DNA from: Alphaproteobacteria bacterium
GTDB taxonomy: Bacteria; Pseudomonadota; Alphaproteobacteria; Reyranellales; Reyranellaceae
Assembly: GCA_017308235.1 (NCBI GenBank)
Contig: JAFKFL010000011.1
Location: forward strand, 1-64,000
DNA length: 64,000 nt
Reading direction: 5' to 3'
Made by a program: the position numbers and the translations under genes. Below, piece after piece: positions 42,899 through 57,694 of this stretch (position 1 is its first letter; each line of letters begins with the position of its first letter). A model generated the notes under the pieces. That model did no database searches, was not told where the DNA came from, and worked only from the letters and a program-made list of their open reading frames with translations.

Positions 42899-43053
42899 GG
42901 CGCTCTCCTGTGCGGCTTCGTATCAATCGTTACCAGCTAGATCCCGCAATGGGAATGAGGGCGGCCCGCAGGACGAGGTGAGGAAATGCCGCTACGCTGT
43001 GTCTCGAAACTGACGGGTTTTGTCGCCATATGACCGCCAAGCGCGAGGTAGCC

Positions 43054-44280
43054 ATGTCCAGTCCTCTGTCCTTCCAGGTGCCAGAACCCGCTGTGCGGCC
43101 CGGTGGTGCGCCGGACTTCAGCGATGTGCCGATCTCGCGAGCGGGCGAGGTTCGGCGTCCTCCAGTCGATGTGGCGCCCGAGGACATCCGCGATCTCGCC
43201 TTTGCGATCATCCGCGTCCTCAACCGCGACAGCGAGGCCGTGGGCCCGTGGGCCGGACTTTTGAACGATGCCCAGCTGTTGGAAGGTCTGCGCCACATGA
43301 TGACCCTGCGCGCGTTCGATGCGCGCATGCAGATGGCGCAGCGACAGGGCAAGACCTCGTTCTACATGCAGCATATGGGCGAAGAGGCGGTGAGCTGTGC
43401 TTTCCGCATGGCACTCGAGCCGGGCGACATGAACTTCCCAACTTACCGCCAGGCCGGACTGTTGATTGCCGGCGGCTATCCCATGCTCGACATGATGTGC
43501 CAGATCTACTCCAACGAACTCGATCCCCTGAAGGGGCGACAGTTGCCGGTGCTGTACTCGGCGCGCGATCACGGCTTCTTCTCGGTCTCGGGGAATCTTG
43601 CGACCCAGTACATCCAGGCGGTTGGCTGGGCGATGGCGTCGGCGATGAAGCGCGACACCAAGATCGCAGCGGGCTGGATCGGCGATGGCTCGACTGCCGA
43701 GTCGGATTTTCACGCTGCCCTTGTGTTCGCCTCGACCTACAAGGCCCCGGTGGTTCTCAACATCGTCAACAATCAGTGGGCGATCTCGACGTTCCAGGGA
43801 ATCGCCCGCGGCGGTTCGGGCACATTCGCCGCGCGGGGCCTAGGCTTCGGCATTCCGGCGCTGCGGGTCGATGGCAACGACTACCTCGCTGTCCATGCGG
43901 TGGCCCAATGGGCAGTCGAGCGCGCCCGGCGCAACCTGGGGCCGACAGTGATCGAGTACGTGACCTATCGGGTCGGCGCGCATTCCACATCGGATGATCC
44001 TTCCGCTTACCGGCCGAAGACGGAGTCGGACGCCTGGCCGCTCGGCGATCCTGTGCTGCGGCTCAAGAATCACCTGATCCGGCGCGGCGCCTGGTCGGAG
44101 GATCGGCACAAGCAGGCCGAGGCGGAGATCCTTTCGTCAGTCATCGCGGTCCAGAAGGAAGCCGAGACCCACGGCACACTCCATACCGGGCCGCACCCAT
44201 CGGCCCGCGACATGTTCGAGGGCGTGTTCGAGCAGATGCCGCCGCATCTGCGCCGGCAACGGCAGCAGGGAGGAGTCTAG
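43054..44280 (+). CDS. bkdA1: Branched-chain 2-oxoacid dehydrogenase E1 alpha
   Basis: A 408-residue BkdA1-like protein. Motifs include QRQGKTSFYMQHMGEEAV, FPTYRQAGLLIAGGYP, DPLKGRQLPVLYS and the thiamine-diphosphate motif GDGSTAESDF to NIVNNQWAIS. The C-terminus HLRRQRQ is typical. Start chosen at ATG 43054 because GCGAGG lies six bases before it; ATG 43030 lacks a ribosome site. It opens the four-gene bkd operon. Confidence 0.95.
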   Translation: MSSPLSFQVPEPAVRPGGAPDFSDVPISRAGEVRRPPVDVAPEDIRDLAFAIIRVLNRDSEAVGPWAGLLNDAQLLEGLRHMMTLRAFDARMQMAQRQGKTSFYMQHMGEEAVSCAFRMALEPGDMNFPTYRQAGLLIAGGYPMLDMMCQIYSNELDPLKGRQLPVLYSARDHGFFSVSGNLATQYIQAVGWAMASAMKRDTKIAAGWIGDGSTAESDFHAALVFASTYKAPVVLNIVNNQWAISTFQGIARGGSGTFAARGLGFGIPALRVDGNDYLAVHAVAQWAVERARRNLGPTVIEYVTYRVGAHSTSDDPSAYRPKTESDAWPLGDPVLRLKNHLIRRGAWSEDRHKQAEAEILSSVIAVQKEAETHGTLHTGPHPSARDMFEGVFEQMPPHLRRQRQQGGV

Positions 44281-44283
44281 CCG

Positions 44284-45297
44284 ATGCCCCGCAAGACGAT
44301 GGTCGAGGCGATCCGCGACGCGATGGATGTCTCCATGCAGCGCGATGAGAACGTCGTCGTGTTCGGCGAGGACGTCGGTTATTTCGGCGGCGTGTTCCGA
44401 TGCACGCAAGGCCTGCAGCAGAAGTTTGGCGCCAGCCGCTGCTTCGACGCCCCGATCAGCGAGCTCGGCATCGTGGGTGCCGCGGTCGGCATGGCGGCCT
44501 ATGGTCTGCGGCCGTGCGTGGAAATCCAGTTCGCTGACTACATGTATCCGGCCTACGACCAGATCGTGTCGGAGGCGGCGCGGTTGCGTTACCGATCCAA
44601 CGGCCAGTTCACGGCGCCGATGGTCGTGCGGATGCCGACCGGCGGCGGCATTTTCGGCGGTCAGACCCATAGCCAGAGCCCCGAGGCGCTTTTCACTCAT
44701 GTGTCTGGCCTCACGACCATCGTGCCGTCCAATCCTTACGACGCCAAAGGACTGCTGATCGCGGCTATCGAGGACAACGACCCGGTGATCTTCCTCGAGC
44801 CCAAGCGGCTTTATAACGGCCCGTTCGACGGCCATCACGACCGGCCGGTGATGCCCTGGGCACGCCATCCCCAGGGCGAGGTCCCGGACGGCCATTATAC
44901 GGTGCCTCTGGGCAAGGCCGCGATCCGGCGGGAGGGCATCGCCGTGACGGTGCTGGCCTATGGCACCATGGTCTTCGTCGCCGAGGCCGCTGTCCAGGAA
45001 ACCGGCATCGATGCCGAGATCATCGATCTGCGCACGCTGGTCCCTTACGACCTCGACACGATCGTCGCCTCGGTGAAGAAGACGGGGCGGTGCGTCATCG
45101 TCCACGAGGCGACGATGACATCGGGCTTCGGCGCCGAGCTCAGTGCGTTGGTGCAGGAGAATTGCTTCTACCATCTCGAGGCGCCCGTCGTGAGGGTCGC
45201 GGGTTGGGACACGCCCTACCCGCATGCACAGGAGTGGGACTACTTCCCCGGACCTGCCCGCGTCGGGCAGGCCCTCAAGTCTGTCATGGAGGCTTGA
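44284..45297 (+). CDS. bkdA2: Branched-chain 2-oxoacid dehydrogenase E1 beta
   Basis: 337 residues with the transketolase-pyrimidine and C-terminal domains: ENVVVFGEDVGYFGGVFRCTQGLQQKFG, DAPISELGIVGAAVGMA, PTGGGIFGGQTHSQSPEA and DLRTLVPYDLDTI. It combines with the alpha chain to decarboxylate the branched-chain oxoacids of valine, leucine and isoleucine. It is four bases after bkdA1. Confidence 0.95.
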   Translation: MPRKTMVEAIRDAMDVSMQRDENVVVFGEDVGYFGGVFRCTQGLQQKFGASRCFDAPISELGIVGAAVGMAAYGLRPCVEIQFADYMYPAYDQIVSEAARLRYRSNGQFTAPMVVRMPTGGGIFGGQTHSQSPEALFTHVSGLTTIVPSNPYDAKGLLIAAIEDNDPVIFLEPKRLYNGPFDGHHDRPVMPWARHPQGEVPDGHYTVPLGKAAIRREGIAVTVLAYGTMVFVAEAAVQETGIDAEIIDLRTLVPYDLDTIVASVKKTGRCVIVHEATMTSGFGAELSALVQENCFYHLEAPVVRVAGWDTPYPHAQEWDYFPGPARVGQALKSVMEA

Positions 45298-45298
45298 G

Positions 45299-46603
45299 AT
45301 GGGGATTCGCGTCATCAAGCTTCCTGACGTGGGCGAGGGCGTGGCTGAGGCTGAGCTCGTCGAATGGCATGTCGAAATCGGCCAATCGGTCCTCGAAGAC
45401 CAGCTTCTGGCTGCCGTCATGACCGATAAGGCGACGGTGGAGATCCCCTCGCCGGTTGCGGGCACCGTCGTGGCGCTGGGCGGCGAGGTGGGCGGCGTCA
45501 TTGCCGTCGGCGCCGAACTGGTCCGCCTCGAAGTGGCAGGTGAAGGGGATCGGGAAGTAGCGGCGGCACCGCGGGAGGCAGCCAAGCCAGAACCGGCGGT
45601 TGCTTCGGCTCCTCCCTCTGCGCCTGTGCAGGCAGCGGCCCCTGCGCCCGCATCTTCTCCCGAGCCCGCTAAACCTGCGAAGCCTTTACCGCCAATGGCG
45701 CGACCGTCGGCGAGGCCACCGCGGCCGGCGGGGGAGAAGCCGATCGCTTCGCCTGCGGTGCGGCGGCGTGCGCGCGATGCTGGTGTCGACTTGCGCCAGG
45801 TGCATGGCAGCGGGCCGGCTGGCCGAATCAGCCATGACGACCTCGACGCATTTCTGCGCGGTAGCTCACAGGCTGCAACCGGCCGCGCCCGTGTGGCCAA
45901 TACCGAGGTCGAGACCGTCAAGGTCATCGGTCTGCGCCGGCGCATCGCGCAGGCGATGGCAGAGTCCAAGCGGCGCATTGCGCACTTCTCCTATGTCGAG
46001 GAAGTCGATGTCACCGCGCTCGAGGAGCTGCGTGCGACCTTGAACGCGCAAAACCGGCAGGATCGTTCGCGACTCACTTTGATGCCGTTTCTGATGCAGG
46101 CGGTGGTGCGGGCGGTCGCTGACTTCCCCGAGATGAATGCGCATTTTGACGACGAGGCGGAGACTATCGAACGCTATGGCGGCGTCCATATCGGCATCGC
46201 GACGCAAACGCCGTCGGGCCTGATGGTTCCCGTCGTCCGCCATTGCGAAGCGCGCGGGCTGTGGGATTTCGCTTCGGAGGTGAGCCGCCTGGCCGAGGCG
46301 GCACGGGAGGGACGAGCCACACGCGACGAGCTCACCGGATCGACCATCACGATCACGAGCTTGGGGGCGCTGGGCGGCATCGTGTCGACGCCAGTGATCA
46401 ACCGGCCGGAGGTGGCGATCATCGGCATCAACAAGGAGGCCGTGCGGCCGATGTGGCAGGGCGGACAGTTCGTGCCGCGCACGATGATGAACCTTTCGTC
46501 CTCGTTCGATCATCGTGTCATCGACGGCTACGTCGCGGCGCGCTTCGTCCAGCGCATCAAGGGTCTGATCGAAGCCCCGGCAACGCTTTTCATAGAGGAA
46601 TGA
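45299..46603 (+). CDS. bkdB: Branched-chain 2-oxoacid dehydrogenase E2 (dihydrolipoyl acyltransferase)
   Basis: 434 residues. A lipoyl domain (Lys44 in [12 protein letters not shown]), a Pro/Ala linker (residues 90-145), an E3-binding domain ([33 protein letters not shown]) and the catalytic core ending [20 protein letters not shown] 45299 is one base after the previous stop. It transfers the acyl group to CoA. A long antisense ORF over this region is not real. Confidence 0.95.
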
Positions 46604-46604
46604 G

Positions 46605-48011
46605 ATGGCCGATATTGCTGCCAAGGTGCTGGTCGTCGGCGGTGGCCCCGGAGGATATGTCTGCGCCATTCGGGCAGGCCAGCTGGGCCTCGATGTCGTG
46701 CTGGTGGAACAGGGTGGCCTGAACGGCGGGCTCGGCGGCACTTGCCTCAACGTCGGCTGCATTCCGTCGAAAGCCGTCATCCATGCCGCTGACGCCTATC
46801 ATCAGGCCGTGACCCAGGCATCCTCGGCGCCGTTCGGCCTCAGGGTCGAGCGCCCGACCATCGACTTTGCGCATACCGTCGAATGGAAGAACGGCATCGT
46901 CGGCCGTCTCACGAGCGGCGTCGGCACGCTCCTGAAGCGGCATCGGGTGAAGATCTTGCACGGACGCGCCGAGATGGTGGACGGCAAGACATGCCGCGTC
47001 GAGACCGACACCGGCCCCCAGGTCATCCAGGCCGAGCATGTCGTGTTGGCGACTGGGTCGGTGCCGGCATCGCTGCCGCCCTTGCCGTTCGGCGGCAAGG
47101 TCATCTCATCGACCGAGGCCTTATCGCTTGCCGCGATCCCCGAGCGCCTCGCCGTCGTTGGCGCCGGCTATATCGGACTTGAGCTCGGGACGGCTTTTGC
47201 CAAGCTCGGCGCCAAGGTCACGGTCATGGAGGCCGAGGAGCGCATCTTGCCGGCCTACGACGCTGACCTCGCGCGGCCGGTTGCAAGGCATTTGCAGGCG
47301 CTTGGCGTCGAGGTCCTGATCAAGGCGAAAGCGGTCGGGCTGTCGGAGGACCAAGGCGCGGTGCTGGTCGAGCAGGAAGGCGTGCCGCGCCGCAGCATCC
47401 CAGCCGACCGCATCCTGGTCGCCACCGGGCGGCGCGCCCGGCTCACTGGCTTCGGGCTGGAGCGCCTCGACCTCACCATGAACGGTGGGTTCGTGCAGAT
47501 CGACGAACGCTGCGCCACCTCGATGCGTAACGTCTGGGCGATCGGTGATCTCACAGGCGAGCCGATGCTTGCGCATCGCGCCATGGCGCAGGGTGTCGTG
47601 GTCGCCGAAGTAATTGCAGGCCATCGCCGCGTCTTCGACGGAACGGTGATTCCCGCTGTGTGCTTCACCGATCCGGAGGTCGTCACGGTCGGCCTTTCGC
47701 CCGAGGAGGCACGGCATGCCGGCCGTGAAGTGCATGTCGCCACCTTCCCATTCCAGGCCAACGGCCGTGCGCTGACCTTGGGCGCGGAGGACGGGTTTGT
47801 GCGCGTCACCGCCCGCGCCGACAATCATCTGGTGCTGGGTATTGCGGCGGTGGGGGCGGGCGTGTCCGAGCTTGCCAGCGCTTTTTCACTGGCGCTGGAG
47901 ATGGGGGCGAGGCTCGAGGACATAGGCGGCACGATCCATGCCCATCCCACGCTGGGCGAGGCTTTCCACGAAGCGAGCCTGCGCGCGTTGGGCGAGGCGC
48001 TCCACATCTAA
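46605..48011 (+). CDS. lpdV: Dihydrolipoamide dehydrogenase (E3)
   Basis: 468 residues with FAD-binding [18 protein letters not shown], redox cysteines [13 protein letters not shown] (Cys47/Cys52), NAD motif [19 protein letters not shown] and C-terminal [13 protein letters not shown]. It reoxidises the lipoyl arm of E2. It is coupled to bkdB by a one-base gap (TGAGATG) and closes the operon. Confidence 0.96.
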
Positions 48012-48248
48012 AGGCGCCTGCCGTCAGCTGATGCGTATATTGCGTAACCGACGAAACACATAGAATGCGGACATCCGTAAGCAAGGCCGTGTAGTACTAG
48101 GGCACTCGACGGTTGTCGTTGGCGTGTTTTGTCGACCGTGAGGAATGGGTCGTCGACGTAACCCGATCTGGGAAGGTGGGTTGCCTTTGACGCTTTGGAT
48201 CGACTCGACGGAAGGGGCTTTACGCCTCCGGCGAGGGGGTGGGGTCCG

Positions 48249-49289
48249 ATGATGCGCGCTCACTTGATCAGCGTTCTGTCCGGTGCCGCTTTGATCTGCG
48301 TCGGCACGGCGACGGCAAGATCTGAGCCGGCGCGCGTCGCGCTCGTCATTTCGAATGCGCAATACGCAAGCATGCCGCCACTTGGGATTTGCGGTGCCTC
48401 AGCAGTGATCGTACGCGATGCCCTGCGCGGCAAGGGATTCGAGGTCATCGAACGGCATGACTTGGGGCGCGGCGAATTCGATGCCGCTATCGGCAACTTG
48501 GCACGCCGGGCCGCCGCGTCGCCCTCGACCTTGGTCGCTCTGTACTATTGCGGCTATGCCCTTGAATTCAACGGACGGTCGTTCCTGTTGCCTACGTCGG
48601 CCGGTCTTGCCCGCGACTCCGACGTGCTCACGCAAGGCATCATCTCGAAGAGCCTTGTCGACAGTCTGGTCCGCATCAAGGAGAGCGGGGGCTTCGTCCT
48701 TTTGGACGTGTTTAAATCGCCGAACTCGGCGGCATCGGGTCTCGCGCGTCTTGCCGAGCAGGCGGCTGCCTCGACCTATGCCGTGATCGGTGTCAGTAAC
48801 GACGTCACGCCGGGCGGTCCGACAGCGGCATCGCTGGCTTTGCGTAACCAGGTCGCGGACATCGTGCCAGGCCTTGAGAAGTTCACCGAGGGCATGCGCG
48901 GCCAGCTTTCCAGCAATGTGTCGGTGACGGCACACTTCGTTCCGGCGCTCGCACTCCCGTCACCGCCACCCCCGCCCCCGCCGCCGCCAGTGGTATCTCC
49001 GCCGGCCGCATCCGCGGTACCTGCCACTCCCACGGTCTCAACGCCTCCCGCAACTCCGCCGCCGCCAACGCGACAGATGATGGCGGATGAGGAGCAGATG
49101 TCCGAGCAGGATCGCCGCCTGGTTCAGGTGAAGCTTGCGACGCTGGGCTATTATACCGGCCGCATCGACGCGAATTTCGGTGCCGAAACGCGGGCGGCCA
49201 TTCGGCGCTATCAGTTCGAGATCAAGGCCGAGATGACCGGCCGCCTGACCGCCGAGCAGGCGACGAAGCTGGTGGACAGCGTACGGTAG
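48249..49289 (+). CDS. Pseudo-caspase with proline-rich linker and peptidoglycan-binding domain
   Basis: 346 residues. After a signal-type segment (LISVLSGAALICVGTATA), residues 28-225 follow the caspase/C14 fold (ARVALVISNAQYA, GASAVIVRDALRGKGFEVIE, LYYCGYALEFNGRSFLLP, LLDVFKS). The His of GHG is Tyr103 and the Cys of DAC is Phe155, so both catalytic residues are gone. A run of prolines (239-273) leads to a peptidoglycan-binding-1 domain (RRLVQVKLATLGYYTGRIDANFGAETRAAIRRYQ). It is nine bases before the heme-sensor gene. Confidence 0.75.
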   Translation: MMRAHLISVLSGAALICVGTATARSEPARVALVISNAQYASMPPLGICGASAVIVRDALRGKGFEVIERHDLGRGEFDAAIGNLARRAAASPSTLVALYYCGYALEFNGRSFLLPTSAGLARDSDVLTQGIISKSLVDSLVRIKESGGFVLLDVFKSPNSAASGLARLAEQAAASTYAVIGVSNDVTPGGPTAASLALRNQVADIVPGLEKFTEGMRGQLSSNVSVTAHFVPALALPSPPPPPPPPPVVSPPAASAVPATPTVSTPPATPPPPTRQMMADEEQMSEQDRRLVQVKLATLGYYTGRIDANFGAETRAAIRRYQFEIKAEMTGRLTAEQATKLVDSVR

Positions 49290-49298
49290 GAGAAAAGC

Positions 49299-50174
49299 AT
49301 GGGCCTCCGGACCAAGTTCAACCTGGTGATGATCACCGCCTTCCTGGTCGGATTGGCGGTTGCGACCTTCCTTGCGCGAGAGATCACGACCGAGGAAGCT
49401 AAGCGACAGATGCTGAGCGAGGCGACACTCCTCATGCGCAGCGGAACTGCCGTTCGAAGCTATACCCAGAACGAGATCAGGCCCCTGATCTATGACCAGC
49501 TGTCCGTGCGTTTCCTGCCGCATTCCGTGCCATCCTGGTCGGCGCAAACCGTGCTCAACCAGGTTCACAAGGACTTTCCCGACTACACCTACAAGGAGGC
49601 GGCGCTCAACCCGACCAATCCCTCCGACCGGGCGACGACCTGGGAGGCCGACATTATCAACGAGTTCAAGCGCAACGGCGAACTCAAGGAGTTTGTCGCC
49701 ACCCGCGACACGCCGACGGGGCAGTTTCTGACGTTCGCCCGGCCGTTTCGTCTGACCGACCGCGCCTGCCTTGCCTGCCATTCCACGCCGGCAGCGGCGC
49801 CGGCGACCATGGTGGACCTCTACGGCAACAGCAACGGATTCGGTTGGGTGCTGAACGACGTCATTGGCGCGCAGATCGTCTCGGTCCCCATGAGCGTCGC
49901 GCTCGCCCGCGCCAACCATTCCTTGCTGGCATTCTTGGCGGCGCTCAGCGCCGTGTTCGTTGGGATGCTGATCCTCCTGAACATACTGATGCACTTTTTC
50001 ATCTTGCGGCCGATGCAGGAAATCACCGCACTGGCCCGCGATGTCAGTGCCGGTAAGGCCGACGTCCCTGAATACAAGGTGAAGGGCAAGGATGAGATCG
50101 CATCACTGGGCCGTTCGTTCAATTTGATGCATCGCAGCCTGCAGAACGCGATCAGGATGTTGGAGGGCGTATGA
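49299..50174 (+). CDS. Heme-c sensor (DUF3365/Tll0287-like) with HAMP
   Basis: 291 residues: a first membrane segment (VMITAFLVGLAVATFLA), a periplasmic Tll0287-like domain ending in CLACHS (157-162), a c-type heme-binding CxxCH motif, then a second membrane segment (LLAFLAALSAVFVGMLILLNIL) and a HAMP domain (LRPMQEITALARDVSAGKADVP). There is no kinase or cyclase output domain. It is likely a redox or gas sensor whose HAMP output passes to the adjacent Ser/Thr kinase. Confidence 0.8.
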   Translation: MGLRTKFNLVMITAFLVGLAVATFLAREITTEEAKRQMLSEATLLMRSGTAVRSYTQNEIRPLIYDQLSVRFLPHSVPSWSAQTVLNQVHKDFPDYTYKEAALNPTNPSDRATTWEADIINEFKRNGELKEFVATRDTPTGQFLTFARPFRLTDRACLACHSTPAAAPATMVDLYGNSNGFGWVLNDVIGAQIVSVPMSVALARANHSLLAFLAALSAVFVGMLILLNILMHFFILRPMQEITALARDVSAGKADVPEYKVKGKDEIASLGRSFNLMHRSLQNAIRMLEGV

Positions 50175-50201
50175 TCGCTTCGCCTCCTGGAGGGTAGTGT
50201 C

Positions 50202-51626
50202 GTGGTGGAGCCACTTCCGACCACCATTGGCCGGTATGTCGTTGAGACTTTGGTCGGCATCGGTGGCATGGGCCGGATCTTCAAGGCCTATGATCCCGAG
50301 ATCCATAGACCGGTCGCCATCAAGCTGATCTCGACCAGATTGATGAGCGGTACCGACTCTGACGAATACATCAGGCGCTTTCGGCGCGAGGTCCAGGCCG
50401 CCGCCCGCTGCGCCCACCCCAACATCGTCGCCATCTATGACTTTGCCCTGCACGAGGGCCAGCCATTCATGGCGATGGAATTCGTCCATGGCGTGAGCTT
50501 GCGCCAGGCGCTCGACGCCGCACCTGTGATGGCTGTTCCGGATGCCATCCGCATCATGCAGCAGGTGCTTGACGCGCTCGCGAGCGCCCACGATTTCGGC
50601 GTCGTTCATCAGGATATCAAACCGGCGAACGTTATGCTGACGCCGGACATGCGGGTGAAGGTTGCGGATTTCGGCATCTCCCGATTCGTGAACACCGAGG
50701 TTACCAGCACCTCCTCGTCGATGGGCACGCCCAACTACATGTCGCCCGAGCAGTGCAGTGCTGACGCGGTGGACGGCCGCTCTGATCTCTTCTCGGCAGG
50801 GGCGACGCTGTTCGAAATGGTGGCTGGCATGCGGGCGTTCCCCGGCCACAACCTCGCCGACGTGACCCATCGTATCCGGTTCGACCGATTGCCGTTGCTG
50901 CCCGCGCCCGTTCGGGCCGTAGCGCCCAGGCTGCAGCTTGTTCTCGAGCGTGCCATGGAAAAGCAGCCGGAAGATCGTTTCCTTACCGCGAGGGAGATGG
51001 CCGAGGCCCTGGGGCAGGTGCTGGGAAGCCTAAGCCGGAATGGCGAGAAGGGCGATGACAAGGAGGAGAAGACTCGGGTCTCGCCGATCAGCGCATCGGC
51101 CGGGAGCGTCGCTGCGACACCTCCTGATTCGCAACAGGGGCTGCAGAGGGACACGGGTTCCAGCTCGCCGATTCCTGAGTCGCAGATTGACGCTGATACG
51201 CTGCGGGTACTGGAGGAAAAACTCGTGGGCTATGTTGGACCGATTGCCCGTGTGCTGGTGCGCACAACGGCCGGCCGCAGCCGGTCCGTCGGCGATCTAT
51301 GCGCGCAGCTTGCCCTCTCGGTCACGGATCCGGCTGAGCGTGAGCGCTTCCGCCGCGAAGTCGGCTCCCTGATCCGGTCTCGTTCGCCGGCGGCGACCGG
51401 CGTGCCGTCACGTGGAGAGCTAAGTGGCTCCCGCGACCGTTTGCCCGAGCACGAGCTGGAACGGGTGCAGGAGGCGCTGGCCCAGTATGTCGGCCCGATC
51501 GCCCGGGTCCTGGTGCGGCGAGCCACGGCGGATGCGACCTCTGTCGAGACGCTGTGGCTCAGCCTTTCAAATCACATCGACTCTCCAGCTGAACGGACGG
51601 CGTTTCTGCAACAGCGCCAGAGGTAG
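50202..51626 (+). CDS. Serine/threonine protein kinase with two C-terminal YVGPIA repeats
   Basis: 474 residues. The kinase domain has GIGGMGRIFKAY (P-loop), AIK with Lys41, HQDIKPANVML (catalytic loop, Arg replaced by Gln), ADFGIS and GTPNYMSPEQ. After a linker are two copies of a unit with YVGPIARVLVR (about residues 328-388 and 414-472). The repeat is known from other bacterial Ser/Thr kinases and from some hypothetical proteins. No membrane segment is present. It likely relays a signal from the adjacent heme sensor and pseudo-caspase. Confidence 0.85.
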   Translation: MVEPLPTTIGRYVVETLVGIGGMGRIFKAYDPEIHRPVAIKLISTRLMSGTDSDEYIRRFRREVQAAARCAHPNIVAIYDFALHEGQPFMAMEFVHGVSLRQALDAAPVMAVPDAIRIMQQVLDALASAHDFGVVHQDIKPANVMLTPDMRVKVADFGISRFVNTEVTSTSSSMGTPNYMSPEQCSADAVDGRSDLFSAGATLFEMVAGMRAFPGHNLADVTHRIRFDRLPLLPAPVRAVAPRLQLVLERAMEKQPEDRFLTAREMAEALGQVLGSLSRNGEKGDDKEEKTRVSPISASAGSVAATPPDSQQGLQRDTGSSSPIPESQIDADTLRVLEEKLVGYVGPIARVLVRTTAGRSRSVGDLCAQLALSVTDPAERERFRREVGSLIRSRSPAATGVPSRGELSGSRDRLPEHELERVQEALAQYVGPIARVLVRRATADATSVETLWLSLSNHIDSPAERTAFLQQRQR

Positions 51627-51661: not shown

Positions 51662-52207
51662 TCATTTGCGCGTGCTTCGCAAAGCGGTCACCAAAGCGCG
51701 GGCGATCATCGCCGGTGATTTGCCGCCGGCACGGTACCAGGTCGGTGTCCAGTTCAGCGCGCCGAGAAGATGCAGCCGCCATAGGCTGCGATCGAGGCCG
51801 GCGGGCAGCGGCAGCGCGGCCACCAACTCCACGAACCGCTTTTCGTAGCCATCGCGCAGGGTCACCAGGCGCCGCCTGAGCCGCGGCTCCAGGCGGCGGA
51901 GGTCTGCCGTCATGACCGCGGCGTGGGCCGAGTCGGCGAGCAGCGATCTCAGATGGGCAACGCACGCCGCTTCGAGTCGCGCCCATGGATCGTTCTTGCT
52001 CTCGATCGCTTCATCCACGGCCGCCCCGATCTCCTCTACACCGGCCTCATAGACCGCGGCGATAAGATCGTTCTTGGACGGGAAGTGATAGTACATCGAT
52101 CCGGCCAGCATGCCGGCCTTGCCGGCGATGTCGCGCATCGACGTGGCTTCAAACCCGCCTTCGGCGAAGAGGCGAGCGGACACCGCGAGAAGGCGTTCAC
52201 GAGACAT
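51662..52207 (-). CDS. TetR-family transcriptional regulator
   Basis: 181 residues; start at ATG 52207 (MSRERLLAVSARLFAEGGFEATSMRDIAGKAGMLAGSMYYHFPSKNDLI, the standard HTH). The ligand domain is helical. It is divergent from the P450 gene and the palindrome at 52222-52239 lies between the two starts, so it is probably the repressor of the oxygenase genes. It shows no relation to the first TetR gene beyond the family. Confidence 0.9.
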   Translation of the reverse strand: MSRERLLAVSARLFAEGGFEATSMRDIAGKAGMLAGSMYYHFPSKNDLIAAVYEAGVEEIGAAVDEAIESKNDPWARLEAACVAHLRSLLADSAHAAVMTADLRRLEPRLRRRLVTLRDGYEKRFVELVAALPLPAGLDRSLWRLHLLGALNWTPTWYRAGGKSPAMIARALVTALRSTRK

Positions 52208-52221
52208 GGCCGAGTCTACCA

Positions 52222-52239
52222 ACCAAACACTTGTTTGGT
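52222..52239. promoter_or_regulatory. TetR operator candidate in the tetR-P450 divergent region
   Basis: ACCAAACACTTGTTTGGT has exact 8-base arms around a CT centre. It lies between the divergent starts at 52207 and 52265, overlapping where both promoters would be, which is typical of a TetR operator. Confidence 0.55.
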
Positions 52240-52264
52240 AAGCGGTCTCTCGCTAGGCTTCGGT

Positions 52265-53488
52265 ATGGCCTACGGCTTCGACCTCGGCGATCCCGCCACC
52301 AACGCCAATCCCTTTCCAGCGTTCGCGCGACTGCGTTCGGAAGATCCGGTGCACTGGTCGCCGGCGATGAAGGCGTGGATCGTCACGCGCTATGCCGACG
52401 TCAAAAAGGTGGCGCTCAACAACCGGCAGATCTCGGCCGACCGGCTCACGCCCTTCTTCAAGGCCAATCCTGAATATCAACGAGGCTCGATCGAGAGCCT
52501 GGCGCGCTACCTCAATCACTGGATGGTGTTTCGTGATCCGCCGGACCACACGCGCCTGCGCCGGCTGTTCAACAAGGCCTTCACGCCGACGGCGGTCGAG
52601 AACCTGCGCCCCAACATAGAAGGTATCGTCGCCGAACTGATTGAGGGTATGGAAGCCAAGGCGAAGCGCACCGGGACAGCCGACTTCATCGCCGACTTCG
52701 CCTATCCTTTGCCCGCGTCGGTGATCATGGATCTTTTGGGCGTGCCGCGTGCCGATCTCGTACGGATGAAGGTCTGGTCCGACGACATCGCATTGTTCAT
52801 CGGCACCGCCCAGGTGGCCGGCAACAAGTATCTGCGTGCCGAGGCGGGCGCCCGGGCGATGGCGTCTTTTTTCCGTGAACTGGTGGAAGCGCGGGCGGCA
52901 GAGCCTGCGGCCGACATGATCAGCAAGCTCGTGCTGGCGCGCGATGAATCTGACGCTCTCACCACCGACGAGATCGTCGGCACTTGCATCCTGCTGCTCT
53001 TCGCCGGCCACGAGACCACCACCAATCTGATCGGCAACGGTTTTCTCTATTCGATGCGCCATCGCGCGCAGTGGGAACGGCTGATCGCGCAACCGTCGCT
53101 GGCCGCTTCGGCCGTTGAGGAATATCTTCGCTACGACGGCCCGTCGGGTGCCCTTGCGCGCGTGGCCGCCGCTGACGTCGAGATGGCGGGCAAGACCATC
53201 CGGGCCGGCGATCGCGTCTTCGCCTTCATGAACTCGGCCAACCGCGATCCCGAAGCTTTCAGCGATCCGGAGCGCTTCGACATCGGCCGCGAGCAGAATC
53301 CGCATCTGACGTTCGGTCACGGCATCCACTTCTGCCTGGGTGCCCCACTTGCGCGTCTCGAGGCCCAGATCGCCGCCATACGGGTGAGCGAGCGACTGCC
53401 GGACATCCGGCTCGCGGCCGGCGAGCCGGATTGGCACGATTCGCTGATCCTTCGGGGCGTGAAGAGCCTGCCTGTCCGGCTCGGATGA
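52265..53488 (+). CDS. Cytochrome P450
   Basis: 407 residues with the I-helix oxygen-binding LLFAGHETTTNLI, ExxR in EEYLRY, and the heme ligand Cys357 in FGHGIHFCLGAPLAR. No membrane anchor, so it is a soluble bacterial P450. It would depend on a ferredoxin and reductase encoded elsewhere. It precedes the Rieske oxygenase and acyl-CoA synthetase and probably hydroxylates the same hydrophobic compound. Confidence 0.95.
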   Translation: MAYGFDLGDPATNANPFPAFARLRSEDPVHWSPAMKAWIVTRYADVKKVALNNRQISADRLTPFFKANPEYQRGSIESLARYLNHWMVFRDPPDHTRLRRLFNKAFTPTAVENLRPNIEGIVAELIEGMEAKAKRTGTADFIADFAYPLPASVIMDLLGVPRADLVRMKVWSDDIALFIGTAQVAGNKYLRAEAGARAMASFFRELVEARAAEPAADMISKLVLARDESDALTTDEIVGTCILLLFAGHETTTNLIGNGFLYSMRHRAQWERLIAQPSLAASAVEEYLRYDGPSGALARVAAADVEMAGKTIRAGDRVFAFMNSANRDPEAFSDPERFDIGREQNPHLTFGHGIHFCLGAPLARLEAQIAAIRVSERLPDIRLAAGEPDWHDSLILRGVKSLPVRLG

Positions 53489-53549
53489 TTGTTGGAGAGG
53501 TTCGGGCCTGAACATTGCAGCAGGTGAGATAGGTGATGGAGGAAGGACC

Positions 53550-54716
53550 ATGGACGGCAAGGACGAACGGGCAACCGGCGAGCGCCTCCTCCGGCATATC
53601 GACAATCGTTCGACCGACCTCGCCCCGGAGATGTTCGCCAACCGTGTTGCCGCCTATTGCAGTCCCGAGCGTGCCGCCGCCGAGAGAGTGCTGTTCAGGA
53701 GTCGGCCGGTATTCGCAGGGTTGAGCTCGCGGCTGAGCCGGCCGGGCGACTACATGGCCGACGATATCGCTGGCATGCCTGTCCTGCTGACGCGCGGCGG
53801 GGACGGACGATTGCAGGCGTTCGCCAATGTGTGCCGTCACCGCGGTGCTCCGGTTGCTCAAGGCTGTGGCAACGCGCGGGCGTTCGCCTGTCCTTACCAT
53901 GGCTGGACCTATGGTCTCGATGGCCGCTTGCTGGGCACGACGGACCGGACCGGCTTCGCGGGCCTCGATCCGGCAACGCACGGCCTGGTGCGCCTGCCGG
54001 CGGGCGAGGCGCACGGGTTGATCTTCGTGCGCCCGCAAGCTGCGACAGCCGGGGAGGCGGAGCACATCGATGTCGGGGACCATCTCGCTGGCTTGACCGA
54101 TGGTTTCGATTCGTGGGGATGGGAGTCGTTCAAACTCCATTCGATCGATCGGCTGAGCCTGGGCTTCAACTGGAAGCTGGTCGTGGATACGTTCCTCGAG
54201 AGCTACCACATCCCACATCTGCACCGCCGCACCATCGCGCCGGACTTCATCGGCAATCTCGGGACGTTCCTGGAGGCGGGACCGCACGGTCGTCAGACCA
54301 TGGTGCGGAAGTCGATCCTGGAGGCCGATGGAAAGTCGGATGTCCAGCATCCGTACCGTCCGCACATCTTGGTGCTCTACCAGATCTTCCCCAACACGCT
54401 GGTGATCTGGGTCGTCGATCACCTTGAGACCTGGCGCGCCTTTCCGGGTCCGGATCCGAGCCAATGCGAGGTGGAGCTGGCGCTTTACGTTCCGGCATTG
54501 GATGACGATGCCAACGCGCAGGCACATTGGGAGAAGAACCGAAAGCTTACGCTTCGGACGGTGCAGGACGAGGACTTTGTCCTGTGCAAGCAGATGCAGG
54601 CGGGTTTTGCGTCAGGCGCGGTCAAGCAGGTCGTCTACGGCCGCAACGAACCTGCTCTTATTCATTTCCACAAGACCCTGGCCGACGTTCTGGGAGAGCG
54701 GGCGCAGGTCTCTTAA
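53550..54716 (+). CDS. Rieske non-heme iron oxygenase alpha subunit
   Basis: 388 residues. The Rieske motif Cys95-x-His97 to Cys114-x2-His117 (CRHRGAP, CPYHGWTYG) and the iron site with His220 and His225 (ESYHIPHLH) are complete. GGAGGAAGG precedes the ATG. Members hydroxylate or demethylate aromatic, terpenoid or choline-type substrates. There is no beta subunit nearby, and it is unknown which reductase serves it. Confidence 0.93.
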   Translation: MDGKDERATGERLLRHIDNRSTDLAPEMFANRVAAYCSPERAAAERVLFRSRPVFAGLSSRLSRPGDYMADDIAGMPVLLTRGGDGRLQAFANVCRHRGAPVAQGCGNARAFACPYHGWTYGLDGRLLGTTDRTGFAGLDPATHGLVRLPAGEAHGLIFVRPQAATAGEAEHIDVGDHLAGLTDGFDSWGWESFKLHSIDRLSLGFNWKLVVDTFLESYHIPHLHRRTIAPDFIGNLGTFLEAGPHGRQTMVRKSILEADGKSDVQHPYRPHILVLYQIFPNTLVIWVVDHLETWRAFPGPDPSQCEVELALYVPALDDDANAQAHWEKNRKLTLRTVQDEDFVLCKQMQAGFASGAVKQVVYGRNEPALIHFHKTLADVLGERAQVS

Positions 54717-54929
54717 CCAGCCAGCGGACAACAACGCGTGTACCTATTCGCGACCGGTCGACGCGGTGGAAACTCCAGCCTTCTCGCTGGCGCCATAAAT
54801 CGCCGGTGGGTGTCCGGCATTCCCTTGACCGGCATGATTTGGCTGTGGCTAGCTGCAACAAATGCGCCTTGCGAAACAGGGCGATACCGACGAGCCGGTC
54901 AACCGGCCGACCAGGGAGTAAGCGCAGGG

Positions 54930-56897
54930 ATGACCACCGCACCGTCCGACAACGGTTCGCAGGTACGGGATACTTTTCCCAAGATGTTGGCCGCTCGTGC
55001 CCGGGCTGGCGGAGATTTGCCCGCCTACCGAGAGAAGGAATTTGGCATCTGGCAGACCTACAGTTGGGCCGAGGTCGCCCGCGAGGTCGAGCGGCTGGCA
55101 GCCGGCTTGGCGACCCTAGGTTTCTGCCGCGGCGACAGGCTTGTCGTGGTGGGCGACAACCGCCCCCGGCTCTACTGGTCGATGTGCGCCGTGCAGTCGC
55201 TGGGGGGTGTGCCGGTGCCGGTCTACCAGGATTCGGTAACGGAGGAGCTATCCTATGTCGTCGAGCATGCCGGGGCCAGTTTCGCCATTGCCGAGAACCA
55301 GGAGCAGATCGACAAGCTTATCGAGATCCAGAAGAGCATGCCGGCGTTGTCGGTGCTGATTTACGACGATCCGCGCGGTCTGCGGCACTACAAAGGCCTG
55401 CTGTCGTACGGCGAAGTGCAGGAGCGGGGGGTGAAGCTTCTGGCGACGACGGCCGATGCCGTCGCCTCCGAGGTCGCCAAGGGGCACGGCGCCGACGATG
55501 CGATCATCCTCTACACCTCCGGTACGACAGGTCGACCCAAGGGTGCCGTCCTGAGCTATGACAATCTCGTCTGGGCGGCAAAGGCCGGTGCAGAATTTGA
55601 CGGCCTGAGGGAAGGCGACGAACTCCTCTCATATTTGCCGATGGCCTGGGTGGGCGATCACATCTTTTCTTACGCTCAAGGGTATGTCGTTGGCCTGGTG
55701 GTCAATTGCCCCGAGTCGGCCGCCACGGTGATGAACGACCTGCGCGAGATCGGCCCGACCTACTATTTCGCGCCGCCGCGGGTGTTGGAGAACCTGATCA
55801 CCCAGGTCGCCATCCGGATGGAGGATGCCGGCTTCATCAAGCGCAAACTGTTCCAGGCCTTCACCACATTGGCGCGTCGCGTCGGACCGGCGCTGCTCGA
55901 TGGCGGAAAAGTGTCGCTGATCGATCGCTTTTTGTATCGCCTGGGCGACCTGCTGGTCTTCGGACCGCTCAAGAACACGCTGGGCATGAGCCGCATCCGC
56001 GTGGCCTACACTGCCGGCGAGGCTGTGGGATCGGAGATATTCAGCTTCTACCGCGCGCTCGGCATCAACATGAAGCAGCTCTACGGCCAGACCGAGGCGT
56101 CGGTGTTTGTCACCATTCATCCGAACGGCGAAGTCTATCCCGACACTGTCGGCAAGCCTGTCTCGGATGTCGAACTCAAGATCGCGGAGTCGGGCGAGGT
56201 GCTCTATCGAAGCCCCGGTGTCTTCAAGGAGTACTTCAAGAACCCCCAAGCGACCGGCGATACCAAGACCAAAGACGGCTGGGTCCACACCGGCGACGCG
56301 GGCTATCTCGACGACCGCGGACACTTGCGTATCATCGACCGCGCCAAGGATGTCGGGAAGCTGAACGACGGTGCGCTGTTTGCGCCGAAGTTCATCGAGA
56401 ACAAGCTGAAATTTTTCCCGCACATCAACGAGGCTGTCGCCTTCGGCCACGGCCGCGACTTCGTGACCGCCTTCATCAATATCGACATGACCGCGGTCGG
56501 CGATTGGGCCGAGCGGCGCAATATCGCCTATGCGAGCTACCAGGAGCTGGCCGGTCGACCGGAGGTCCATGATCTGATTCAGGGCGAGATCGAGCGCGTC
56601 AATCGCGACCTCGCCCACGATCCGCGCATGGCTGGCGCCCAGATCCGACGCTTCCTGATCCTGCACAAGGCGCTTGAGGCCGACGATGGCGAGTTGACCC
56701 GGACCAACAAGGTTCGCCGCGGCTTCATCGGCGAACGCTACAAGCCGCTTGTCGATGCGCTCTACGACGACTCCAAGAGCGCTCATATAAAGGTCGACGT
56801 GACCTTTGAGGATGGGCGCAAGGGGACCATCGAGGGGACGATGCAGATCCGCGACCTCGCCCACCAGCCGGCAATACCGCTCAAGAAGGCGAGTTGA
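54930..56897 (+). CDS. Long-chain acyl-CoA synthetase (AMP-forming)
   Basis: 655 residues starting at ATG 54930 (MTTAPSDNGS); GGGAG lies upstream. AMP-binding motifs ILYTSGTTGRPKGAVLSYDN, LPMAWVGDH, YGQTEASVFVTIH, and GWVHTGDAGYLDDRGHLRIIDRAKDVGK. The length and the KFIENKLKFFPHINEAVAFGHGRDFVTAFINID part match the long FadD15-like class. The preceding 54717-54929 region holds no other gene. It activates a fatty or aryl acid, probably imported by the Liv-type system behind it. Confidence 0.93.
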   Translation: MTTAPSDNGSQVRDTFPKMLAARARAGGDLPAYREKEFGIWQTYSWAEVAREVERLAAGLATLGFCRGDRLVVVGDNRPRLYWSMCAVQSLGGVPVPVYQDSVTEELSYVVEHAGASFAIAENQEQIDKLIEIQKSMPALSVLIYDDPRGLRHYKGLLSYGEVQERGVKLLATTADAVASEVAKGHGADDAIILYTSGTTGRPKGAVLSYDNLVWAAKAGAEFDGLREGDELLSYLPMAWVGDHIFSYAQGYVVGLVVNCPESAATVMNDLREIGPTYYFAPPRVLENLITQVAIRMEDAGFIKRKLFQAFTTLARRVGPALLDGGKVSLIDRFLYRLGDLLVFGPLKNTLGMSRIRVAYTAGEAVGSEIFSFYRALGINMKQLYGQTEASVFVTIHPNGEVYPDTVGKPVSDVELKIAESGEVLYRSPGVFKEYFKNPQATGDTKTKDGWVHTGDAGYLDDRGHLRIIDRAKDVGKLNDGALFAPKFIENKLKFFPHINEAVAFGHGRDFVTAFINIDMTAVGDWAERRNIAYASYQELAGRPEVHDLIQGEIERVNRDLAHDPRMAGAQIRRFLILHKALEADDGELTRTNKVRRGFIGERYKPLVDALYDDSKSAHIKVDVTFEDGRKGTIEGTMQIRDLAHQPAIPLKKAS

Positions 56898-56899
56898 CC

Positions 56900-57694
56900 G
56901 TGACGACGGCCCGCGCGCGCTCGTTCACCGACGTCCTGCTGTCGGTCGAGAACATCAGCCTGTCGTTCGGCGGCGTGAAGGCCCTGACCAACATCAGCTT
57001 CGATATCCGAAAGGGCGAGATCCGTGCCATCATCGGCCCCAATGGCGCCGGCAAGTCGTCGATGCTGAACTGCATCAACGGCTTCTACCATCCGCAGGAA
57101 GGCGCCATTACCTACAAGGGCCAGCGCCGCTCGCGCATGCGTCCGCACGCGGCGGCCGAGCAGGGTATCGCCCGGACCTTCCAGAACATCGCACTGTTTC
57201 GCGGCATGTCGACGCTCGACAACATCATGACCGGCCGTAACCTGCGCATGCGGACTGGTCTCTTCTGGCAGGCGTTGCGGCTGGGTCCCGCCGACCGTGA
57301 GGAGATAGAGCATCGCAAGGTGGTCGAGCGCATCATCGACTTCCTGGAGATTCAGCACATCCGCAAGGTGCCCGTGGGACAGCTTCCCTACGGCCTGCAG
57401 AAGCGCGTCGAGCTTGGCCGTGCGCTGGCCGCCGAACCCGAGCTGCTGCTGCTAGACGAGCCCATGGCCGGCATGAATCTCGAGGAGAAGCAGGACATGT
57501 GCCGCTTCGTCCTCGATGTGAACGATGAGTTCGGCACGACCATCTGCCTGATCGAGCACGACATGGGTGTGGTGATGGACATCTCCGACCGCGTGGTCGT
57601 GCTCGACTACGGCAAGAAGATCGGCGACGGCGCACCTGACGAGGTGAAACGCGACCAGGCCGTCATCGACGCCTATCTCGGCGTCAGCCACTGA
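56900..57694 (+). CDS. Liv-type ABC transporter ATPase (LivG-like)
   Basis: 264 residues from GTG 56900 (a TTG at 56894 overlapping the previous stop is also possible). Walker A GPNGAGKSS, Q-loop FQNIALFRGMST, signature LPYGLQKR and Walker B LLLLDEPMAGMN with the IEHDMGVVMDISDR switch. It begins the transporter operon G-H-M-K-F for a branched-chain-amino-acid-type or aromatic solute. Confidence 0.94.
   Translation: MTTARARSFTDVLLSVENISLSFGGVKALTNISFDIRKGEIRAIIGPNGAGKSSMLNCINGFYHPQEGAITYKGQRRSRMRPHAAAEQGIARTFQNIALFRGMSTLDNIMTGRNLRMRTGLFWQALRLGPADREEIEHRKVVERIIDFLEIQHIRKVPVGQLPYGLQKRVELGRALAAEPELLLLDEPMAGMNLEEKQDMCRFVLDVNDEFGTTICLIEHDMGVVMDISDRVVVLDYGKKIGDGAPDEVKRDQAVIDAYLGVSH

Follow-up and report, generated by a model that had tools for sequence, protein, structure and literature searches.

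How can a membrane receptor whose cytosolic side ends with its HAMP domain pass a signal on? The question is raised by a 64,000-nucleotide stretch of DNA (hereafter the window; positions 1 to 64,000 of the forward strand of contig JAFKFL010000011.1, GenBank assembly GCA_017308235.1) from an alphaproteobacterium of the family Reyranellaceae, whose 6.3 Mb assembly (contig 32) is called G000 here. The window carries three consecutive plus-strand genes, for a caspase-like protein (gene 1), an output-less heme receptor (gene 2) and a Ser/Thr protein kinase (gene 3), which an original prediction, made from the sequence alone, had described as a candidate signalling system; the coordinates of the open reading frames (ORFs) and their spacing of 9 and 27 bases agree with it (Table 1). 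We propose, as a moderately probable reading, that genes 2 and 3 form a split transmembrane receptor, in which the heme sensor would signal from its HAMP domain to the separate kinase via docking modules in the kinase tail. A broader claim is put forward tentatively, a little short of an even chance: that this module, called here the GPxA or STAC-like module, is a general prokaryotic plug, that HAMP-ended receptors are not defective and use separate, interchangeable effectors, and that the window encodes a pathway from nitric oxide (NO) to Ser/Thr phosphorylation.

A tail module beside HAMP-ended receptors

Gene 2 matched PF11845 (Tll0287-like) with 131.8 bits (cut-off 24.1) and the profile search gave no further domain above cut-off past HAMP, so the predicted membrane sensor with a CxxCH motif and HAMP and without an output domain was recovered. 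The Tll0287/DUF3365 domain has been given the new name sCache_heme (PMC12889525, a 2026 preprint; statements on this and the other cited papers refer to the available parts of their text). Gene 3 matched PF00069 with 159.8 bits and contains the motifs HQDIKP and VADFG, as in Hanks-type Ser/Thr kinases. Its tail holds two copies, 40% identical to each other, of a four-helix module of about 60 residues; these are the two YVGPIA repeats listed by the original prediction, found again by a tail profile of 49 rows in which both window repeats are included, and they now look like a coupling device. The sole other match to the gene 3 tail in the G000 genome had an E-value of 0.14. The kinase as a marker of a defence system was rejected, the PADLOC matches shown (PD-T4-6, mad6 and others) falling on the kinase domain and some slightly beyond it.

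Scanning genome contigs with an alignment of the sensor gave at least 585 loci. The 80 best were retained, so the counts for them hold for close relatives of the sensor (those with names include Reyranella soli and other Reyranella). A tail-module gene was located downstream on the same strand in 78 of the 80 loci, within 100 bases in 70 and at most 783 bases away. Of these 78 proteins, 74 have a kinase as their other part (73 recognised by profile, plus L117, split in two frames and counted as a kinase), three (L082, L122 and L125) a cyclase-like part and one (L128) a TIR domain; at least one tail protein, L091, had both kinase and cyclase matches. All 73 tail kinases possessed the HxD and DFG string, with HRD in 66 and HQD, as in the window kinase, in seven. 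Two modules were present in 73 of the 79 tail genes in these loci and one module in six. At L128:3073-3816, the TIR protein has one C-terminal module and overlaps the preceding heme-HAMP sensor gene by 4 bases, and is possibly an effector under the control of a periplasmic receptor, judging by the gene arrangement. A protein at L089:27-1598 that looks by eye like a GAF-histidine kinase also has one tail module; it lies 2.6 kb upstream of a sensor having its own tail kinase and was not counted as sensor-adjacent.

The adjacency of sensor and kinase is kept across Proteobacteria, with the gene order reversed in some loci (L174, L179, L183, L185, L197-L199 and L202). In a phylum sample of 398 genomes, the tail (E 1e-6) was present in five, all of which belong to the 17 genomes that gave a sensor match (E 1e-15); the remaining 12 lacked the tail at the threshold used, and most of their sensors continue past HAMP into long frames. 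In 300 genomes of one order, 31 had the tail, and the 37 tail places among those listed comprised 22 adjoining an sCache_heme-HAMP sensor, seven adjoining a HAMP-ended receptor without CxxCH (three dCache_1-HAMP and four short HAMP receptors, with no named sensor domain in the three scanned of these four) and eight with no receptor, whose tail proteins include kinases and one cyclase-like protein. From these gene neighbourhoods we infer that the module is a common plug, the same receptor being served by kinase, cyclase-like or TIR effectors and the same plug standing beside other HAMP-ended receptors, and, one step further, that the neighbouring proteins would dock.

In the receptors next to tail genes, two fixed positions at the HAMP end are occupied by Ser and Ala, each residue being present in 77 of the 79 anchored sensors; both residues occur in all six other tail-adjacent receptors shown and in one of 13 sensor rows without a tail. 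These positions may be a docking surface, or they may merely mark a HAMP subtype. Among individual loci, the receptors of L197, L198, L199 and L202 match the heme sensors in the membrane and HAMP parts, have no CxxCH (those of L198 and L202 have no Cys whatsoever) and adjoin two-module tail proteins, of which the one at L197, which was scanned, has no named domain. Output-less dCache_1-HAMP receptors at L205, L206 and L207 adjoin short proteins with one tail module, the N-terminal part of the L206 protein being weakly like DUF4388, below cut-off.

The tail as a named domain was rejected, there being no consistent or convincing Pfam family among 49 repeats (alignment A3) and nothing consistent in NCBIfam among 74 repeats (A6); a third alignment, A4, contains the window tail and 67 of the 73 two-module tails. 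Two further names were also considered: DUF8082 gave no model match and no paper was found, and the effector-associated domain (EAD) of conflict systems did not appear among the Pfam matches of the 49 repeats, no comparison aimed at it having been made.

In the mechanism that we propose, a dimeric periplasmic c-heme Cache domain, probably NO-binding, would alter HAMP, which by comparison with the family is the sole cytosolic part of the receptor. The kinase would dock on this HAMP end through its two C-terminal four-helix modules, and the receptor would then switch the Ser/Thr kinase activity. The pseudo-caspase would be a non-catalytic periplasmic accessory at the peptidoglycan that modulates the sensor, which is the weakest step. 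In relatives where the cassette is linked to a type VI secretion system (T6SS), the kinase substrates may be secretion components; this is improbable in the window genome because TssB was not found there.

Table 1. Features of the cassette, in window coordinates.
Feature	Position	Strand	Basis
Pseudo-caspase with C-terminal PG_binding_1 (gene 1), 346 aa, probably secreted	48249..49289	+	profile, alignment, AlphaFold2 model, structure match
Tyr103 at the catalytic His position of the caspase fold	48555..48557	+	alignment
Phe155 at the catalytic Cys position of the caspase fold	48711..48713	+	alignment
Peptidoglycan-binding domain PF01471, residues 286-341	49104..49271	+	profile
Gap between genes 1 and 2	49290..49298	+	9 bases, ORF list
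Output-less receptor, sCache_heme (Tll0287/DUF3365) plus HAMP (gene 2), 291 aa	49299..50174	+	profiles
CLACH c-type heme attachment motif, residues 157-161	49767..49781	+	sequence; CxxCH in 80/80 related sensors
HAMP domain, residues 234-282; protein ends 9 residues on	49998..50144	+	profile
Gap between genes 2 and 3	50175..50201	+	27 bases, ORF list
Ser/Thr protein kinase with two tail modules (gene 3), 474 aa, GTG start	50202..51626	+	ORF, profiles
Protein kinase domain PF00069, HQD for HRD	50235..50996	+	profile, sequence
Tail (GPxA, STAC-like) module 1	51180..51362	+	49-row profile, model
Tail (GPxA, STAC-like) module 2	51438..51614	+	49-row profile, model
Cassette limits	48247..51626	+	long block common to window and relative G015, blastn

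Fold of the module and conservation of the cassette

The AlphaFold2 model of the tail consists of two four-helix units, most blocks having a pLDDT of about 90. The conserved GPxA connects the first helix to the second (G30-P31-x-A33, between the helices of residues 15-29 and 33-43), and the residue preceding its G is mostly V, I or L by eye. Translational coupling links AF1502 of Archaeoglobus, a STAC protein, to Af1503, a receptor whose sole cytosolic part is HAMP, and STAC proteins have in common a motif LGPx(x)A joining helices 1 and 2 (PMC4834066). The tail agrees with STAC in setting and motif because AF1502 adjoins the HAMP-ended Af1503 and carries LGPx(x)A, and coupling to a HAMP-ended receptor, which belongs to the STAC setting, was found for 78 of the 80 sensor loci and 29 of the 37 tail places. 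However, the central loop between the two hairpins has three residues in the model (44-46 and 129-131), against typically nine in STAC (PMC5715377), and the module is therefore named STAC-like and not STAC. The modelled tail resembles the STAC fold, which falls short of proof of family membership, and AF1502 is not claimed as a proven homologue, in view of tied structural rows and E-values that were not significant. No CbrA-type STAC protein was found for a profile comparison, L215 being a plain symporter frame. In P. putida, deletion of STAC lowered target expression (PMC7918813).

Several results weigh against docking by a STAC-like plug. Some sensors end at or shortly after HAMP, yet no tail gene was seen in the stretch covered: two of the 80 (L097 and L114), the gamma-type sensor L043/L216 (L043, in G442, being at least one exception among the 12 tail-less phylum-sample genomes to the continuation past HAMP) and a cyanobacterial sensor on a plasmid of Rippkaea orientalis (L208). 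Eight of the 37 tail places had no nearby receptor, one of the eight being at a contig end, and the surveys favour sensor-adjacent tails because the profile was derived from such tails. The pTM of the tail model was 0.42, so the relative placement of its two units is not fixed. The best solved structure by Foldseek was AF1502 with a weak E of 2.4; AF1502 also came first in VIA-align (Z 6.0, rmsd 3.3, 62 aligned), with unrelated chains tied at 5.3. Families missing from these structural lists carry no weight as evidence. The profile comparisons with AF1502 were not significant (E 0.13, rank 1 with A3; 1.4, rank 3 with A4; 0.37, rank 8 with A6). Moreover, CbrA and CrbS without STAC grew without obvious defect in P. 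fluorescens (PMC5715377).

The cassette itself recurs in the genus. A strong sensor match was obtained in nine of 37 genus genomes, the window genome included and the weak matches in G026, G028 and G030 (E about 1e-4, HAMP part only) left out, and all eight same-genus relatives with the sensor have the trio in the same order (in L008, a contig end truncates the kinase), so that the trio is present in nine of the 37 sampled genomes, which rules out an accident of one genome. The original prediction had named absence of the trio from related genomes as a result that would speak against it, and the eight relatives show otherwise. In 57 kb of relative G015, compared with the window by blastn (matches over 150 bases listed), the sole long common block was 3.4 kb at 78.7% identity, and its edges were those of the trio; a further match apart from the trio covered 309 bases at 66%. 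In G013, the P450 gene adjoining the trio is also common with the window. A promoter and terminator scan gave no promoter-like site and three terminator-like sites, close to the shuffle means. Read from translations, the neighbours of the cassette are genes of a 2-oxo-acid dehydrogenase complex at 43030-48011 and, at 51662-57694, a TetR-like gene, a P450, a Rieske-type oxygenase, an acyl-CoA synthetase-like gene and an ABC transport gene.

Competing explanations, signal and accessory

Docking on the receptor has to be weighed against the possibility that the tail acts on its own effector, by regulation or dimerisation, or binds some other partner, the link of receptor and kinase being loose. 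The receptor-less tail places would fit this, and the two modules in 73 of the 79 tail genes would suit self-association; on the other side, effectors of the kinase, cyclase-like and TIR types that stand next to one kind of receptor have the tail as their common part, and the tail accompanies receptors of differing input domains that have HAMP in common. We regard this alternative as unlikely. That the three genes are neighbours without any shared pathway is very improbable: the presence of a caspase-like gene before just 23 of the 80 sensors would be in line with it, but the trio stays together in the genus, the block common with G015 is confined to it, and a tail gene follows 78 of the 80 sensors. 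Therefore, given the trio in nine of 37 genomes and the sensor-kinase adjacency across Proteobacteria, the path from periplasm to phosphorylation suggested by the original prediction is a reasonable inference. Two of its parts are modified, the signal being less likely redox or cell-wall state than NO and the pseudo-caspase not belonging to the conserved core. The observation behind that prediction was thus confirmed and its reading was partly supported.

As to the signal, a family member with two transmembrane segments and HAMP but without an axial Cys released NO slowly and formed no stable O2 complex (PMC12889525). The window-type sensors share the features of this NO-binding class, with HAMP present and no axial Cys beyond CxxCH: the motif was found in 80 of 80 sensors, further Cys in none within the 125 residues before and 40 after it, and all Cys of the window sensor lie within CLACH. 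By analogy, NO is a more probable signal than redox in general or the state of the cell wall, because a sensor of the same architecture binds NO (PMC12889525) and no further Cys occurs in the 80 sensors. A sensor acting as a periplasmic redox or electron-transfer heme protein, reporting redox state instead of NO, is the less probable reading though one to be taken seriously; a tested stand-alone member acted like a redox protein and the tested HAMP-bearing member also autoxidised fast (PMC12889525), and against these stand the NO and O2 behaviour of the two-segment HAMP protein and the lack of further Cys in the stretch examined. A possible link to type VI secretion appears in the genus sample, with TssB in seven of the nine trio genomes and two of the 28 others (Fisher p = 1.1e-4, relatedness ignored). 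Behind the trio of G015 lie a Tae4-like gene and a T6SS cluster. T6SS genes also border five of the six plasmid loci that have sensor and kinase, and in two of these five, the Caballeronia loci L222 and L223, the kinase gene has a PP2C phosphatase gene next to it. The trio might on these grounds be dedicated to the T6SS as a threonine-phosphorylation switch, the window copy being a leftover after loss of the secretion genes, which we judge quite unlikely: TssB (PF05591 at E 1e-6) was not matched in the window genome (98% complete), nor found in G023; in G013 TssB and the trio are on separate contigs; any of six T6SS proteins was matched in just six of 80 sensor loci and three of 37 tail loci in the stretch covered; and three of the six plasmid loci come from one genus. 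We regard secretion control as a use to which the cassette may be put, without defining the cassette by it. The T6SS cluster of G015 also has a second Ser/Thr kinase that carries a peptidoglycan-binding domain (L229:33-1958), and G021 and G035 have kinase matches near tssH. Some 4-5 Mb records of the plasmid collection look like chromosomes (e.g. NZ_CP141089.1 and NZ_CP104448.1).

Gene 1 is a caspase-fold protein that has lost both catalytic residues and carries a peptidoglycan-binding domain, just as the original prediction had read it. It matched PF00656 (Peptidase_C14) with 36.5 bits (cut-off 21.4), partially, over profile positions 2-118 of 233, and PG_binding_1 with 41 bits; it was the sole Peptidase_C14 match of the G000 genome at E 1e-3. 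Its AlphaFold2 model (pLDDT 86.4) had the caspase-fold protein MALT1 as best match among solved structures (Z 23.8, rmsd 2.5, 193 aligned). The catalytic His-Cys dyad is not conserved, Tyr and Phe standing for His and Cys, and an active caspase-type protease was rejected because no Cys occurs at the site in any of 23 aligned sequences (the window and 22 loci), two of which (L069 and L071) retain the His; alignment A5 contains the window protein and 21 of the 22 caspase-like proteins, L065 being left out. Two Cys, 48 and 101, are conserved and could form a predicted disulphide. By our own reading of the sequences, the gene 1 product would be secreted and the gene 3 product cytosolic.

Of the genes 5' of the 80 sensors, 23 were caspase-like, nine FecR-like and 40 of another or unclear kind, and for eight sensors no such neighbour was found; at L061, whose sensor is 73% identical, a caspase-like gene was not seen. 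The nine FecR-like proteins match the L223 protein, itself FecR by Pfam, and L105, the one FecR-like protein scanned, gave no Pfam match. Several other upstream proteins read as lipoproteins by eye, and Pfam gave little. The pseudo-caspase is a replaceable accessory outside the conserved core, because only 23 of the 80 sensors are preceded by one and most of the others have a FecR-like or other gene in that place.

Relation to known systems

The sensor family, STAC proteins beside HAMP-ended archaeal receptors, pseudo-caspases and the kinases are each known separately. PpkA and PppA provide threonine-phosphorylation control of type VI secretion, and the cassette resembles them in that some relatives have its Ser/Thr kinase close to T6SS genes and to a PP2C gene. 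Unlike that pair, however, it occurs in a genome in which TssB was not found, and its window kinase has, by our own reading, no periplasmic part of its own. In titles and abstract openings we found no description of STAC-like kinases beside HAMP-ended receptors or of effector swapping, some of which earlier STAC literature may mention, and nothing on YVGPIA.

One plug on differing enzymes suggests an overlooked modular route for transmembrane signalling. If true, it would suggest an output for the NO-binding sCache_heme-HAMP proteins and amount to a bacterial scheme of one receptor with many effectors; archaeal HAMP-ended receptors lack a recognisable effector (PMC4834066). Docking and switching are directly testable because the module sits on separate enzymes with obvious outputs beside HAMP-ended receptors.

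A close counterpart of the window sensor in the literature is the NO-binding Target 2 of P. azotoformans (PMC12889525), which shares with it the domain, the CxxCH motif, a cytosolic side made up of HAMP and the lack of an axial Cys; neither 'operon' nor 'threonine' appears in the main text of that preprint, and its available parts describe no separate docked effector. Gene 1 is like the pseudo-orthocaspases in having a caspase fold with Tyr for His, but these have Ser for Cys where gene 1 has Phe, so that it lacks their defining pair of Tyr and Ser, and it differs from them by its peptidoglycan-binding domain and its place beside a sensor and a kinase (PMC6426788). In the SLC5-STAC histidine kinases CbrA and CrbS, a four-helix unit between the membrane part and the kinase is likewise a suggested coupler, within one chain after the transporter, whereas the module described here is C-terminal on a separate protein (PMC5715377, PMC7918813, PMC13022988). 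The pair Af1503/AF1502 of Archaeoglobus shows the same arrangement of an effector-less HAMP-ended receptor beside a small four-helix protein with LGPx(x)A (PMC4834066); by comparison, the module here is mostly doubled, bacterial, fused behind kinases or other enzymes, and its central linker, about nine residues long in STAC, has three in the model.

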